Source: an uncultured Nitrososphaerales archaeon
GTDB lineage: Archaea > Thermoproteota > Nitrososphaeria > Nitrososphaerales > JAAOZN01
Direction of reading: 5' to 3'
NCBI GenBank assembly: GCA_938029515.1
Contig: CALJAQ010000092.1
Coordinates: forward strand, 1-10,190
DNA length: 10,190 bases
Part shown: positions 2,960 through 10,190 of the stretch, in pieces
How positions within the stretch are numbered: the first letter of the stretch is position 1
Layout of the letters: each line of letters opens with the position of its first letter
Program-made: the position numbers and the translations under genes
Notes under the pieces: model-generated
Told to the model about the DNA's origin: nothing
The model's input: only the letters and a program-made list of their open reading frames with translations
The model's database searches: none

Positions 2960-2980
2960 GAAAGGGTGCGTTATCGTGGT

Positions 2981-4039
2981 GTGAAGGTCTGGATAGACAT
3001 TCTTACAGCAAAGCAAGCCCTATTCTTTACACCGCTAGCCGAAGAGCTTGAGAAGAGAGGGCATAAAGTGGTCTTAACAACCAGACAATACTTTGAGGTG
3101 GTAGATTTGTTGCGTATTCTAGGTGTAGAAGCAGAAGCAATAGGTAGGCACGGCGGAGAAACGCTATACGGCAAGCTTGAAGCAAGCGCAGAAAGGGTAT
3201 GGAAGCTGGCTGCATACATATTAGAAAAGGCTCCAGAAGCGGCAGTCTGCTTCGCTTCTCCAGAATGCGCTAGAGTAGCGTTTGGATTAAGCATACCCCT
3301 TTTCTGCGTAAACGATTCGCCTCACTCTGAGAGGGTAGCCAGACTAACAACACCCTTAGCCAGCATACTTCTAAGCCCTTGGGTTATACCCTTATCCATC
3401 TGGACACGCTTCGGAATACCGAGAAGTAAAGTTGTGCTCTACCGCGCCCTTGACCCAGCTGCTTGGCTGAAGCGTGGGGTTAAGCCGAAGGTTGAACCTA
3501 AGTTAAATCAGATAGATCGATCTAAGAAGATTATTGCAATACGCCTCGAGGAATCTCAAGCCTACTACCTAAGCCCAGATGATTTAATGTGGACCAAATC
3601 TGTTATAGACAGCATACTTAACGAAGCCAGCGCAGCTAACATACTCATTTTAGCAAGAAACCCTGTGCAAAGGATAACAGTCAAAGAGAGATACGGCGGG
3701 CGAGTAACAATCCTAGATAAAGCATTCTTCGGACCGACGCTGCTGAAGAGCGTGGATGTTTTAGTAGGTATGGGTGGCACTATGACGGTTGAAGCAGCGC
3801 TTATGGGTGTACCGACCATATCAGCGCAAAGAGTGGGCAGACTATACACCGAAGAGTATCTGATCAAACAAGGACTAATCCTAAGACCAGGAACCCCAGA
3901 GGCGGTAGCCAAAACAGTAAGAGAGATTCTTAGAGACACACACTTAAGAATAGAGATAGAAGCAAAAGCGAAAAAGATGCTCAACAAAATGGAGGATCCG
4001 GTAGAAAAGATAGCTTCAACAATAGAAGTCTTTAAGTAA
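2981..4039 (+). CDS. DUF354 (COG1817) family glycosyltransferase-like protein
   Basis: This predicted cytosolic GT-B-fold protein belongs to the DUF354 family, which is related in fold to MurG and UDP-GlcNAc 2-epimerase. The family's biochemical reaction is not established. The chosen start gives MKVWIDILTAKQALFF, the usual DUF354 opening, then FTPLAEELEKRGHKV. The C-terminal half carries GMGGTMTVEAALMGVPTIS (about residues 263-281), the glycine-rich, Glu-containing loop that contacts the donor nucleotide in GT-B enzymes. The 352 residues match the family's length. A GTG 15 nt upstream (2966) is possible, but it adds MRYRG and fits the TATA-like box less well. The gene diverges from the dehydrogenase-like/oxidoreductase pair, and archaeal DUF354 genes often sit in sugar-modification loci. 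I infer a role in nucleotide-sugar conversion or surface-glycan assembly. Confidence 0.85.
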   Translation: MKVWIDILTAKQALFFTPLAEELEKRGHKVVLTTRQYFEVVDLLRILGVEAEAIGRHGGETLYGKLEASAERVWKLAAYILEKAPEAAVCFASPECARVAFGLSIPLFCVNDSPHSERVARLTTPLASILLSPWVIPLSIWTRFGIPRSKVVLYRALDPAAWLKRGVKPKVEPKLNQIDRSKKIIAIRLEESQAYYLSPDDLMWTKSVIDSILNEASAANILILARNPVQRITVKERYGGRVTILDKAFFGPTLLKSVDVLVGMGGTMTVEAALMGVPTISAQRVGRLYTEEYLIKQGLILRPGTPEAVAKTVREILRDTHLRIEIEAKAKKMLNKMEDPVEKIASTIEVFK

Positions 4040-4042
4040 GCG

Positions 4043-4051
4043 TTATAAGTA
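4043..4051 (+). promoter_or_regulatory. TATA-like box of the tRNA-Gln gene
   Basis: TTATAAGTA begins four bases after the DUF354 stop codon and is centred at about 4047. Transcription would then start near 4072-4073, giving a leader of eight or nine bases before the mature tRNA 5' end at 4081. The placement suggests that the tRNA is transcribed independently of the gene before it. Confidence 0.5.
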
Positions 4052-4071: not shown

Positions 4072-4089
4072 AGCCCGGGAAGCCCGGTG
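4072..4089 (+). repeat. Nine-base tandem duplication covering the tRNA leader and 5' acceptor strand
   Basis: AGCCCGGGA (4072-4080) is followed at once by AGCCCGGTG (4081-4089). The two copies share AGCCCGG, the 5' strand of the tRNA acceptor stem. Either copy could pair with the 3' acceptor strand CCGGGCT at 4183-4189. The second copy is taken as the mature end because it is followed by T8-G9, whereas the first is followed by G-A and lacks the nearly universal U8. Confidence 0.75.
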
Positions 4090-4090
4090 G

Positions 4091-4108
4091 AGCACATCAA
4101 GCGCCGAT
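4091..4108 (+). other. Probable tRNA intron 1 (18 nt, D-stem position 10/11)
   Basis: The segment starts AGCACATC and ends GCCGAT, splitting the 5' strand of the D stem. The junction is set by the mature fold: G10 must meet TGC to pair with GCAT. A GCA (4092-4094) can pair with TGC (4109-4111), giving only a three-pair core of a bulge-helix-bulge. A relaxed motif is therefore possible but not proven. Confidence 0.6.
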
Positions 4109-4125
4109 TGCAGCGGTCAAGCATA

Positions 4126-4144
4126 GGCTTAAGCCTCTTGAATA
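4126..4144 (+). other. Probable tRNA intron 2 (19 nt, near position 26/27)
   Basis: The segment lies between base 26 and the anticodon stem. ATA is repeated at both edges, so the cut could equally be 23/24, 24/25, 25/26 or 26/27 with the same product. It overlaps the perfect palindrome AGGCTTAAGCCT (4125-4136), which can fold as AGGC/GCCT with a TTAA loop. For a 26/27 cut only three pairs (GCT with GGC, one a wobble) form the expected core helix. Confidence 0.6.
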
Positions 4145-4193
4145 CCGGCCTTTGGAGCCGGTGACGGCAGTTCGAATCTGCCCCGGGCTACCA

Positions 4194-4462: not shown

Positions 4463-6421
4463 GTGGTAAAAGTAGAGGTTTTAAGCTTGGAGGAAGAGCC
4501 GCTTATACTACCATATGCGCTTGAAATCGATAAGAAAGGGTGGATAAGGGGTTTCACAGAAGATGTAGAGGCGGCGCTCTTCCTCCTCTTCCTTGAACGC
4601 GAGCGTAAACGCACCTTTAAGAAAGCCGCAGATAATTCGCAGATCACTCTTTTAGCTAAGATCTACTACTCAGCTTGGATTACCCCTTGGAGGGATGGGA
4701 GGGGGTTAATGATCGATGGCCTTGGGCTCTTTCCGCAAACTATTTATTATGATGAACTTCCAGACTCTAAGACCTTCATTAACGAGCTTGAGAAGGCAAA
4801 TTCTGCTGAAGAATATCTTGATACTCTAAGAAGGCATGCGCTCACCTTCTTCACCGTCAAAGCGTCTAGACCGTTTATCGTTAGCCTTATTTCAAAAAAG
4901 GATTTGGTAGCTGACCTGCAATCCTACATCATTCATTATAAGAGAGGAGCTGTGACTAACGCCCTCTCTCTGAACCCAAGAGTTTCTTGGCAACAAGCTT
5001 CAACTTTCATGGAGATGTTGAATGGGGTTGAATCAGAAATCGAAGGGCTTAATGCTGTTAAGGAGCGTCTTACAACCCTGAGCAGCGAATGGGTAAGGAG
5101 GCAGAAAGAAGCGGTCGAGGATTCTCGGAGAGAGTATCTTACGCGGATTGAAGAGGAGAAGGTAAAAGCTAAACTTGATGAGTTACGGGCTGAGTATCAA
5201 TCAATGGTCGCTGAACTTGAAAAGAAGTTGGAAGAAGAGGTTAAAGCTCTACGTGATGAGGGGGAAAGACTTAGAGGTGATGCCCAACGCCTCCAGCAAA
5301 AGAAGGATGAATACTTTAAAATGATCGATGATCTACGTCAGCTGAGAGAAGCGTTATTAAAGCCTCTTAATGAGCCGCGGCGGAGACGAAACGAGATATC
5401 TAGTGAACTTACAAACCAGATTGCTAAGCTTGAGGCCCTAAAGATGGAACGCCTCCGTTTAGAAGATCTGGCAGAGGGGCAGAAAGGTGTTGCGTCTGAG
5501 CTCAGCGTCACAAGACAACGCATATCACAGATCAACTTAGAGATAGATGCGGTCAATGAACTTATCCTCAAGTTAAAGAAGGAACTTAAAGACGAAGATG
5601 AGAAACACGCAAGACTCCAAGAAGACTTAGTTAAGCTAAGTAAACAGATAGCTGATGTAGAGAAAGCGATTAAAGGTCTTGACGCCTCAATAGTTGAAAA
5701 TAGAGCTCGTCAGGCAAGCATCCCACACCAAATCGAAGATGTTAAAAAGAGAGGCCACGAGGAGATCCTGAAAGTTGATAGAGATTACAGGCTTAAGTTT
5801 GACGAAATAAGAGGAAAGATCAATACTCTACAGCTTGAGATGACACGTAGAATAGAAGCTGAGCAAAGGTTGATCGAGGAGATGGTGAGAAGAACTGATG
5901 AAATTATTGCGCAGATAGAGAAATTAGTTGAGATTAAGCGATCATTCATCCAAAGTTTTCAGGCTGTTTCGATCTATCTTCCTAAGAGCTTAGAGGTCAC
6001 CGCACCCACTTTGATACAAATACCTCTATACTTGCTCTGCTTTGAAACGTTAACTGATCGTAAACACATATTATATACACCTATAGTGGTTAAAGAGGTC
6101 AGCAAGATACCTTGGTTAAAGAAGGTGTCTTTGGAGACGATGCTGAAAAACTTTGATCAAATAGTGAAAAGTAGACTCTATGAAGCAATGGAGCAAGACT
6201 GCTCATTCGAAGAAGATCTACTCAACTCGTGCAGCCGACTTAACCTACTTAGTAACTCAGATTTTCTCGCAGCGGTCTTTAAAGGGCTTACTCAGCTAAA
6301 GAATCGAGCGTGGATCTCTACAAGTGAGGCTGATAGAGTGATGGCTATGCTTTACGGACCTACTTTGCCTGTTGAGGAGAAAAAAGGGTATGCGAAGCTC
6401 TCCTTTAAGATTTTAAGGTGA
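4463..6421 (+). CDS. Uncharacterised long coiled-coil protein with globular ends
   Basis: I do not recognise a named family for this 652-residue protein. Residues 1-180 look globular, with a hydrophobic-aromatic core (LLAKIYYSAWITPW, 63-76; GLMIDGLGLF, 81-90). Residues about 185-495 are highly charged Glu/Lys/Arg/Leu heptad-like sequence, a long coiled coil with proline breaks at 301-305 (PLNEP) and 421 (IPHQ). These breaks would let it bend or fold back. Residues 500-652 form a second globular part with strand-like segments (TLIQIPLYLLCFE, KHILYTPIVV) and a helical tail. There is no Walker A or B motif, so it is not an SMC or Rad50 ATPase despite the similar layout, and no signal peptide or membrane helix is seen. 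GTG at 4463 is chosen because the TATA-like box predicts a leaderless start there. The TGA overlaps a GTG and supplies the GGTGA ahead of the next gene, a GT4 glycosyltransferase, so the two are co-translated. A structural or scaffolding role is only a guess. Confidence 0.85.
   Translation: MVKVEVLSLEEEPLILPYALEIDKKGWIRGFTEDVEAALFLLFLERERKRTFKKAADNSQITLLAKIYYSAWITPWRDGRGLMIDGLGLFPQTIYYDELPDSKTFINELEKANSAEEYLDTLRRHALTFFTVKASRPFIVSLISKKDLVADLQSYIIHYKRGAVTNALSLNPRVSWQQASTFMEMLNGVESEIEGLNAVKERLTTLSSEWVRRQKEAVEDSRREYLTRIEEEKVKAKLDELRAEYQSMVAELEKKLEEEVKALRDEGERLRGDAQRLQQKKDEYFKMIDDLRQLREALLKPLNEPRRRRNEISSELTNQIAKLEALKMERLRLEDLAEGQKGVASELSVTRQRISQINLEIDAVNELILKLKKELKDEDEKHARLQEDLVKLSKQIADVEKAIKGLDASIVENRARQASIPHQIEDVKKRGHEEILKVDRDYRLKFDEIRGKINTLQLEMTRRIEAEQRLIEEMVRRTDEIIAQIEKLVEIKRSFIQSFQAVSIYLPKSLEVTAPTLIQIPLYLLCFETLTDRKHILYTPIVVKEVSKIPWLKKVSLETMLKNFDQIVKSRLYEAMEQDCSFEEDLLNSCSRLNLLSNSDFLAAVFKGLTQLKNRAWISTSEADRVMAMLYGPTLPVEEKKGYAKLSFKILR
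6417..6421 (+). promoter_or_regulatory. Shine-Dalgarno GGTGA that decides the glycosyltransferase start
   Basis: GGTGA, a perfect match to archaeal anti-Shine-Dalgarno, overlaps the stop codon of the coiled-coil gene and lies eight bases before the ATG at 6430. It favours 6430 over the GTG at 6418, which sits inside the motif itself. Confidence 0.5.
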
Positions 6422-8736: not shown

Positions 8737-9540
8737 TCAGCTGACTGCTGTTTTAAGCCGGTGAGTCAAGTCTTCAATCGCCCTGACTGCCAGCGAATCT
8801 GGGGCGTAGTCTATTGGCGATAACCCAGCCATTTCAGCGTCAGGCACAGAGCGGTCTAGGGGGATGTTAGCCAACAGGTCGAGTCCAAGCCTCTCCACTT
8901 CACCTTTGACAAAAAGAGCCTCATCGCTTCGACCAATCTTATTCCCGACGACGTAGATGCGCTTCACACCGAGATCCTGCGCCAGCTTCTTCACCCTGTA
9001 CGCTGTTTCGATAGATCTGAAGCTCGGCTCAACCACAGCTAGAAGTGCATCAACACCCTTAACTACACCCCTACCAAGGTGCTCTAACCCAGCCTCCATG
9101 TCCAAAACAACGACATCCTCTCTATCCAATAGAAGGTGGCGTAGAAGCGCTTTAAGAAGCGCGTTAGCTGGGCACATACACCCACCGCCAGCAGACTTGA
9201 CCGTGCCCAAGACTAGCAACGTGACACCATCAGGCCCTCTAATACCATATTTATCAGCGAGGTCACTCACCCTGGGCGTTAAACTGAAGACGCCTCCTAC
9301 TGAGCCAGGCCTTGCGCCAGTACGCTCTTCTATAAGGTCATCGTTTTCAGATAGCGGTGTGATGCCGGTCAAAGCTGACTTTGGCACCCCTAAGGATAGC
9401 CAGAGGTTCATCGCTGGGTCGGCGTCTATCGCCAGAACCTTCGAGCCTCTGCGTGCCATCGACCTTGCTAATACCCCGCTTATTGTAGTCTTGCCTACAC
9501 CCCCCTTACCAGCTACCGCTATCTTCAAATCTTCTGCCAC
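8737..9540 (-). CDS. CooC-like P-loop ATPase with CxC metal-binding pair
   Basis: This 267-residue ATPase belongs to the MinD/ParA (SIMIBI) group, close to CooC, which uses ATP to help insert nickel into carbon monoxide dehydrogenase. The deviant Walker A is GKGGVGKTT (residues 11-19), followed by AIDADP (37-42) and Walker B VVVLDMEAGLEHLGRG (143-158). GNK (199-201) contacts the adenine base. The sequence GGGCMCPAN (118-126, Cys121 and Cys123) is the CxC pair that in CooC joins two subunits around a metal ion. The length is normal for CooC. GTG at 9540 overlaps the end of the upstream CooC-like gene by 16 bases. A TTG at 9528, giving MKIAVAGKGG and overlapping that gene's TGA, is a strong alternative. 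The client enzyme is not in the window. A general MinD-like ATPase is unlikely because of the CxC pair. Confidence 0.87.
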   Translation of the reverse strand: MAEDLKIAVAGKGGVGKTTISGVLARSMARRGSKVLAIDADPAMNLWLSLGVPKSALTGITPLSENDDLIEERTGARPGSVGGVFSLTPRVSDLADKYGIRGPDGVTLLVLGTVKSAGGGCMCPANALLKALLRHLLLDREDVVVLDMEAGLEHLGRGVVKGVDALLAVVEPSFRSIETAYRVKKLAQDLGVKRIYVVGNKIGRSDEALFVKGEVERLGLDLLANIPLDRSVPDAEMAGLSPIDYAPDSLAVRAIEDLTHRLKTAVS

Positions 9541-10190
9541 CAGAGCTTCTGCTCCGCTTCTTTAAGGGGGAGGCTTTCAACGAGTTTATGCACCGCTTTG
9601 TATGCTTTAGACTCAGGTGGTAGGGTTGTGAGAGGTTTACCTTCTAGGTCAAACTCAGCCACTAGATCGTCTTCAGGTATGAGTGCTATACACTCTATCC
9701 CCATCTTAGCCGCTTCCTCAGCCACTTTATCCACTAGGCTCTGCGGCACTCGGTTAACCACCATATACATCTTGCCGAACTTCGTGTTCAACTCAGATAC
9801 AAGCTCCTTAACCCTCTTCGCAGTCATAAAACCCCTTGCAGTGGGGTCTGAGACGACGAGGAGAACATCTACGTCTCTGGTTGTGCGTCTGCTAAAGTGC
9901 TCTAACCCAGCTTCAGCGTCTATGACCACGAATCTGTATCTTTTGCTAACCTTATCAAGAACCTTCCTCAACAGGTGGTTAACGTAGCAGTAGCATCCAG
10001 GCCCTTCAGGTCTACCCATGCTGATTAGGTCAAAGCCTTCGCCTTCTACAGTAGAGCTTTGTATGAGCCCTTCTAGGTAGTCTGCTTTACCCTCTTCTGG
10101 AGGTATTTTGTCACCTAGTTTTAGCAAGTCTTCACGTATATCGCCTATACTCCTACCTGCCTCTACACCCAGCGCCTCGTGTAGGTTTGA
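9525..10190 (-). CDS. Second CooC-like P-loop ATPase, N terminus cut off by the window edge
   Basis: The open frame runs unbroken to position 10190, giving 221 visible residues. The first is in SNLHEALGVEAGRSIGDIR, the segment that follows the DADP motif in CooC-like ATPases. Walker A and roughly the first 40 residues therefore lie beyond the window. A TTG near 10127 would be read as a start by a simple ORF caller, but conserved sequence continues upstream of it. Visible features are GPGCYCYVN (the CxC pair), the Walker B region RFVVIDAEAGLEHFSRR, and VVNR in place of the usual nucleotide-binding NK. It differs clearly from its neighbour, so the pair is an old duplication or two functional types. 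The tail (LWWQKI) overlaps the start of the next gene by 16 bases, indicating translational coupling. The likely role is maturation of a nickel or other metal enzyme. Confidence 0.85.
   Translation of the reverse strand, partial: SNLHEALGVEAGRSIGDIREDLLKLGDKIPPEEGKADYLEGLIQSSTVEGEGFDLISMGRPEGPGCYCYVNHLLRKVLDKVSKRYRFVVIDAEAGLEHFSRRTTRDVDVLLVVSDPTARGFMTAKRVKELVSELNTKFGKMYMVVNRVPQSLVDKVAEEAAKMGIECIALIPEDDLVAEFDLEGKPLTTLPPESKAYKAVHKLVESLPLKEAEQKLWWQKI

Follow-up and report, generated by a model that had tools for sequence, protein, structure and literature searches.

How is a tRNA put together when its gene is broken by two tiny introns, neither of them in the anticodon loop? The question is raised by a tRNA-Gln(TTG) gene at positions 4081–4193 of the stretch of DNA analysed here (10,190 nt from an uncultured Nitrososphaerales archaeon, hereafter the window), in which an 18-nt insert follows base 10 and a 19-nt insert precedes the anticodon stem. 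The window comes from a draft genome (G000) of 1.11 Mb in 194 contigs that is 72% complete, and the tRNA gene lies between the genes for a DUF354 protein upstream (2966–4039) and for a protein without any Pfam match downstream (4463–6421). Two adjoining genes on the reverse strand of the window, 8737–9540 and 9525–10127, match CbiA/MinD/ParA-type nucleotide-binding domains, the match of the latter being weak, beginning within the domain and lying close to the window end.

A tRNA-Gln gene with two introns

ARAGORN, run in its bacterial setting without introns, found no tRNA either in the window or in the unspliced 150-nt piece. After removal of both inserts it returned a full tRNA-Gln(ttg), while removal of intron 1 alone led to a misreading as tRNA-Leu and removal of intron 2 alone to a distorted tRNA-Gln starting inside intron 1. 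The full tRNA-Gln is read only with both inserts removed, and the two introns named in the original prediction are borne out by the sequence. All parts lie on the forward strand: exon 1, tRNA bases 1–10 (AGCCCGGUGG), at 4081–4090, intron 1, 18 nt at 10/11, at 4091–4108, and exon 2, bases 11–24 with the D loop, at 4109–4123, all placed with ARAGORN on the spliced form, followed by intron 2, 19 nt at 24/25, at 4124–4142. Exon 3 (4143–4190) runs from base 25 to the discriminator A73 and holds the anticodon UUG and the 3' strand of the acceptor stem (4183–4189), and an encoded CCA can be read in the sequence at 4191–4193. The exons all lie in order within 4081–4190, an arrangement that sets the gene apart from split or permuted tRNAs.

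The precursor is kept in both same-genus genomes, with 93% and 90% identity, and for this reason the tRNA gene cannot be put down to chance. When compared with the Rfam tRNA model the unspliced gene reached 29.4 bits, barely above the gathering score of 29, and the folding energy of the precursor is unremarkable (z -1.88, with 11 of 200 shuffled sequences folding equally well). A search of phage records gave no match. According to the original prediction, an intact second tRNA-Gln(TTG) gene, together with no spliced product from this locus, would have spoken for a pseudo-tRNA. A BLAST search matched two genes in G000 and two in its same-genus relative G001 (98% complete), in each case one for UUG and one for CUG, with no second UUG gene found in G001 or among the 72% of the genome covered by G000. 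A pseudogene or unspliced relic, which ARAGORN's failure on the unspliced gene could suggest, is scarcely credible for a locus that yields a full cloverleaf when spliced, is conserved in relatives and was accompanied by no other UUG gene among the matches in G000 or G001. Judged from sequence, the locus is probably a working tRNA-Gln(UUG) gene, the sole UUG gene found in G000, and the proposal of two non-canonical introns in it is upheld.

Intron 2 forms a full hBHBh' motif in which an outer helix CGGU/ACCG (4114–4117/4144–4147), a central 4-bp helix CAAG/CUUG (4118–4121/4137–4140) and an inner helix AGGC/GCCU (4125–4128/4133–4136) with the loop UUAA are joined by the 3-nt bulges AA↓U and CA↓U. 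The 4-bp helix, the two 3-nt bulges and the flanking helices of an archaeal BHB are thereby all present. The 19-nt insert was originally placed at 26/27; its length stands and its junction is moved by the motif to 24/25, the two junctions giving an identical product because UA is repeated at both ends. Introns of the 24/25 type were seen in 31 genes, and the outer helix forms 3–4 of its 4 pairs in 30 of these; the central helix was built into the search expression, so its presence in 31/31 is no test, and 55 of 177 genes lay outside the fit of the expression and were left unjudged.

Further introns were noticed along the way. The tRNA-Gln(UUG) genes L018, L021, L023–L026, L028 and L029 apparently have three, at 10/11, at 24/25 and in the anticodon loop, and among the other tRNAs of G000 and G001 the genes L259, L261, L262, L285, L289 and L290 are lengthened by inserts (longest 162 nt) and apparently contain at least one intron each.

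An intron predicted to pair with the acceptor stem

The motif of intron 1 consists of the bulge GG↓A, the helix C5G6G7U8/GCCG, the bulge AU↓U and an inner GC/GC. The exon strand of this helix, CGGU at 4085–4088 on the forward strand with its partner GCCG at 4103–4106, is made of acceptor bases 5–7 and base 8 (splicing helix 1). All 4 pairs were found in 42/42 genes retrieved by BLAST, giving the 4-bp helix and, exactly at the splice sites, the 3-nt bulges of the archaeal motif; in genes retrieved by pattern, part of the helix was already required by the pattern. The outer helix is absent, bases 1–4 and 12–15 forming 0–1 of 4 pairs in 129/129 genes.

When 400 genomes of the class were searched with the 10/11 pattern, which carries no condition on the upstream sequence, 101 were matched, against 0 for a reversed-pattern control; the 101 are an undercount, as the window's own gene escapes the pattern. 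Together with the 31 genes of the 24/25 type, this number shows that neither intron is unusual in this lineage, and the view that neither junction has a full bulge-helix-bulge gives way to one in which the motif of intron 2 is complete and that of intron 1 misses the outer helix only. No other 10/11 intron was seen by eye among the tRNAs displayed for G000 and G001, nor was any seen among the tRNAs displayed for G421, from outside the class, which therefore offers no test. Searches with other versions of the acceptor gave 0/398 and 0/400, the zero of the first sample being uninformative since it held no f14 genome.

When searching for the splicing endonuclease, two PF01974 proteins were found in each of five relatives (98–99% complete). 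One of the two in G001 has catalytic-type His and Lys, which we take to be the residues expected of a catalytic PF01974 subunit, and the His is missing from the other. The PF01974 protein found in G000, at 72% completeness, is the non-catalytic-looking one only. An endonuclease of alpha2beta2 type is reported for Thaumarchaeota (PMC4090602), and the sequences of the G001 pair fit this type.

A copy of the acceptor strand in the leader

The sequence AGCCCGG at 4072–4078 on the forward strand, which the original prediction did not include, is a copy of the 5' strand of the acceptor stem. It can form 7/7 pairs with the acceptor 3' strand at 4183–4189 and is separated from the mature 5' end by the spacer GA (4079–4080). 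A copy was scored when a 7-mer within 15 nt upstream of a tRNA formed at least 6/7 pairs with the acceptor 3' strand and shared at least 5 bases with the 5' strand. BLAST over 101 genomes gave a match in at least 95, and most of the matches listed were analysed. The 235 mapped loci were made up of 177 distinct genes, 36 loci identical to a counted gene and 22 that were unparsed, 10 of the latter being pattern matches read by hand and 12 left unjudged. The hand-read L187 and L247 end before the 3' strand, for which CCGGGCU was assumed, and in 2 of the 131 parsed genes the intron ends were misplaced by the parser (helix 0/4).

A copy precedes 138 of the 141 tRNA-Gln genes in which a 10/11 intron was found (129/131 parsed and 9/10 read by hand). 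For genes found by BLAST the figures are 42/42 with the intron and 3/46 without it, where the query included the copy and could favour copy-bearing genes, those lacking it being matched through the 3' half. Shuffled upstream sequence satisfied the same definition in 198 of 2580 cases (7.7%), and the 3/46 is therefore at chance level. Such gene counts concern related genes and not independent events; family-by-isoacceptor units, which are a partial guard against this, gave a copy in 19/19 with the intron and 0/16 without (Fisher p 2.5e-10). Where a genome holds one gene of each kind, the intron-bearing gene alone has the copy in 14 of 15 cases, and in the genera g13, g17 and g11, where both states are present, the copy follows the intron. 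It is intron 1 that is tracked, with a copy in 73/73 genes having this intron alone against 1/13 having intron 2 alone, and a link of the copy to intron 2 was rejected.

As a forward test on new data, the 10/11 pattern was run over 398 genomes of the phylum and matched 10 genomes outside the class, and 10 of the 16 listed matches were examined, one per genome, with L304 read by eye. One of these, L308, turned out to be no tRNA and to lack a copy; the tRNA-Gln genes examined, from six families, carry it in 9/9 cases, each paired 7/7. Within the class, 14 further families have retained the copy. A poor copy despite a 10/11 intron was seen in L166, L237 and L149, and among non-Gln tRNAs, mostly of G000 and G001, 1 of 44 satisfied the definition, at 6/7 and chance-like.

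Some tRNA-Gln(CUG) genes without a 10/11 intron have upstream sequences of their own. In family f4 an acceptor copy lies 17–21 nt upstream of L081, L082, L083 and L084, beyond the 15-nt limit, and could in L081–L083 pair with a nearby GGGCU or GGGU; these copies are possibly relics. A decayed copy-like word (e.g. AATCTGG) stands one base upstream of L078, L080, L093 and L037 in family f13, as if intron loss came first. Extra altered tRNA-Gln-like pieces, L042 and L043, were also seen in G008 and G017, one of them at a contig end.

The spacer between copy and tRNA is 0–5 nt in 123 of 129 copy-bearing genes, with a full range of 0–13 nt. These distances bear on the idea that the copy is itself the true 5' acceptor strand, the first intron then being longer and including the second AGCCCGG, or the two copies being separated by a third tiny intron. 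Both strands are indeed able to pair with the 3' strand; base 8, however, is expected to be U, and a U follows the copy in only 13 of 131 genes, and spacers of 0–1 nt would leave an intron of 7–8 nt, presumably too short for a bulge-helix-bulge, which makes this idea most improbable.

Pairing and energetics of the copy

At positions 2–6 of the copy, 47 changes in 130 genes keep the pairing with the 3' strand, each of them a C-to-U change facing a G, against 2 that break it, a count aided by the choice of each copy as the best-pairing window, with 1 of 131 genes (L237) excluded by the pairing filter. A change of G to A is absent from these positions in the 130 genes and was met at position 2 of the hand-read L149, the copy of which pairs 5/7. 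The ends are freer, pairing being broken at position 1 in 48 genes and at position 7 in 31. In the five genes of family f14 everything is altered together, with the acceptor AGCCCCG, the 3' strand CGGGGCT, the compensatory splicing helix CCGU/GCGG and the copy AGCCCCG. The D loop is still CGGU in the three UUG genes of this family, and since the intron helix has changed with the acceptor it follows that the partner of the intron is the acceptor strand rather than the D loop. A promoter or other DNA signal as the function of the copy was rejected, on account of its match to the altered f14 acceptor and the changes that preserve pairing.

The same features weigh on the possibility that the copy is a functionless scar, for example a direct repeat that integration or slippage left behind on arrival of the intron. 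A precedent can be seen in the tRNA-Thr of Caldiarchaeum, where a direct repeat of a tRNA piece upstream of the gene is reported to be linked to an inserted element (PMC3293823). That repeat is described as comprising bases 1–27 at a distance of 1.8 kb, whereas here 7 nt are repeated at 0–13 nt and are conserved; in the window the copy is 2 nt away with nothing in between, unlike a direct repeat at an integration site. A scar would moreover not be expected to persist in 14 families of the class and six outside it, to change in ways that preserve pairing, to match the altered f14 acceptor or to fall to chance level in intron-less genes, and we regard it as very unlikely.

When comparing the duplex of the copy with that of the true strand, it was weaker in 86 genes, equal in 43 and stronger in 0 (n = 129), an outcome that is near-guaranteed because the true strand pairs fully. 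Across 57 genes, at most 8 per family, the median cost of forcing splicing helix 1 to form rose from 0.55 kcal/mol when the copy was intact to 3.30 kcal/mol when it was scrambled; the real copy was cheaper in 53/57 and scrambling was harmless in 4/57. For the window's own gene the corresponding costs are 0.95 and 3.91 kcal/mol. In its minimum-energy fold the copy is paired with the 3' strand, yet the GCCG of the intron lies on the D loop and not on bases 5–8.

Transcription start

A TATA-box-like TTATAA was read in the sequence at 4043–4048 on the forward strand, with 26.5 nt between its centre and the leader copy. In 138 intron-bearing genes, eight of them from outside the class, the A+T content peaks at 0.91–0.95 at 25–29 nt before the copy, while the profile before the tRNA in 44 intron-less genes shows more noise and has its highs at -36 (0.89) and -29 (0.84). 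In archaea the TATA box stands about 26 nt upstream of the transcription start, and with the composition peak as its sole support the transcript probably starts at the copy, which would then be the first thing transcribed. The spacing of the TATA box is no tighter to the copy than to the tRNA (sd 9.76 and 10.06, respectively).

A putative role for the copy in splicing

Comparison of the sequences shows the two introns and the copy, and also how the copy is linked to the 10/11 intron and which pairings it keeps; from these we infer how the precursor folds, the tethering by the copy, an exchange of strands and an order with splicing ahead of RNase P. Bases 5–7 cannot pair with the intron and the 3' strand simultaneously, a conflict that a spare strand would solve. 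In the precursor the leader copy (4072–4078) would pair with the acceptor 3' strand (4183–4189), and the true bases 5–8, left free, would form the splicing helix together with the 3' end of intron 1, to be read by a heteromeric endonuclease. The copy is joined to the 10-nt exon 1, which would thereby stay tethered after cleavage. Once the intron is removed and the exons ligated, the true strand would displace the copy, as it may regain the 3' strand by pairing at least as well, the D arm would close and the leader would finally be removed by RNase P. That the copy holds the acceptor 3' strand during splicing, frees bases 5–8 and tethers exon 1, splicing taking place before RNase P, appears to us likely.

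The pairing evidence fits equally well with a copy that pairs with the 3' strand for end processing or regulation, by holding back RNase P or tRNase Z or setting when they act, and not for splicing. In bacteria, pairing between the leader and the 3' RCCA is reported to inhibit formation of the RNase P encounter complex (PMC9433436). Such a role leaves the close tracking of the 10/11 intron by the copy unexplained and is considered unlikely.

In the preferred reading, with the copy acting in splicing, the copy must persist through splicing and RNase P would have to wait, so that a fixed processing order is predicted. In Methanopyrus, by contrast, the ends are reported to be trimmed first and the introns removed last (PMC3695527), and it is this opposite order that makes the splicing-first prediction a sharp one. 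Whether the leader is in fact a built-in RNA strand-exchange switch that forces splicing to precede RNase P, inverting the order reported for Methanopyrus, is a proposal we hold to be evenly balanced.

Relation to known systems and implications

Non-canonical tRNA introns reported from Crenarchaeota and Thaumarchaeota are short, lie outside 37/38 and may occur several per tRNA (PMC4090602, PMC8450103). The introns described here resemble them in these respects as well as in the 4-bp helix and the 3-nt bulges, and possibly also in the alpha2beta2-type endonuclease given in the same reports, but differ in that intron 1 has no outer helix, uses acceptor bases 5–7 and base 8, and is accompanied by a leader copy of the acceptor strand. 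A model for the introns of Thaumarchaeota, 107 of which are reported, is part of tRNAscan-SE 2.0, and the 10/11 or 24/25 intron may already have been annotated by it. There is also a likeness to the split, trans-spliced tRNA halves of Nanoarchaeum, where a paired leader is described as holding the tRNA pieces for the endonuclease (PMC4090602, PMC4033280); in the present case a single transcript carries a leader that duplicates the acceptor strand and would pair with the mature 3' strand, in contrast to the leader/trailer pairing of Nanoarchaeum. No description of the leader copy was found in the literature searched, in which a minority of subscription papers was covered, and an earlier report is possible.

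The leader copy offers a simple marker for the annotation of such tRNA-Gln genes, one of which was missed by ARAGORN here. The findings would explain how an intron may use bases of the acceptor stem for its splicing structure with the tRNA staying together, and they suggest that the leader of a tRNA, far from being waste, may be conserved as a working part.
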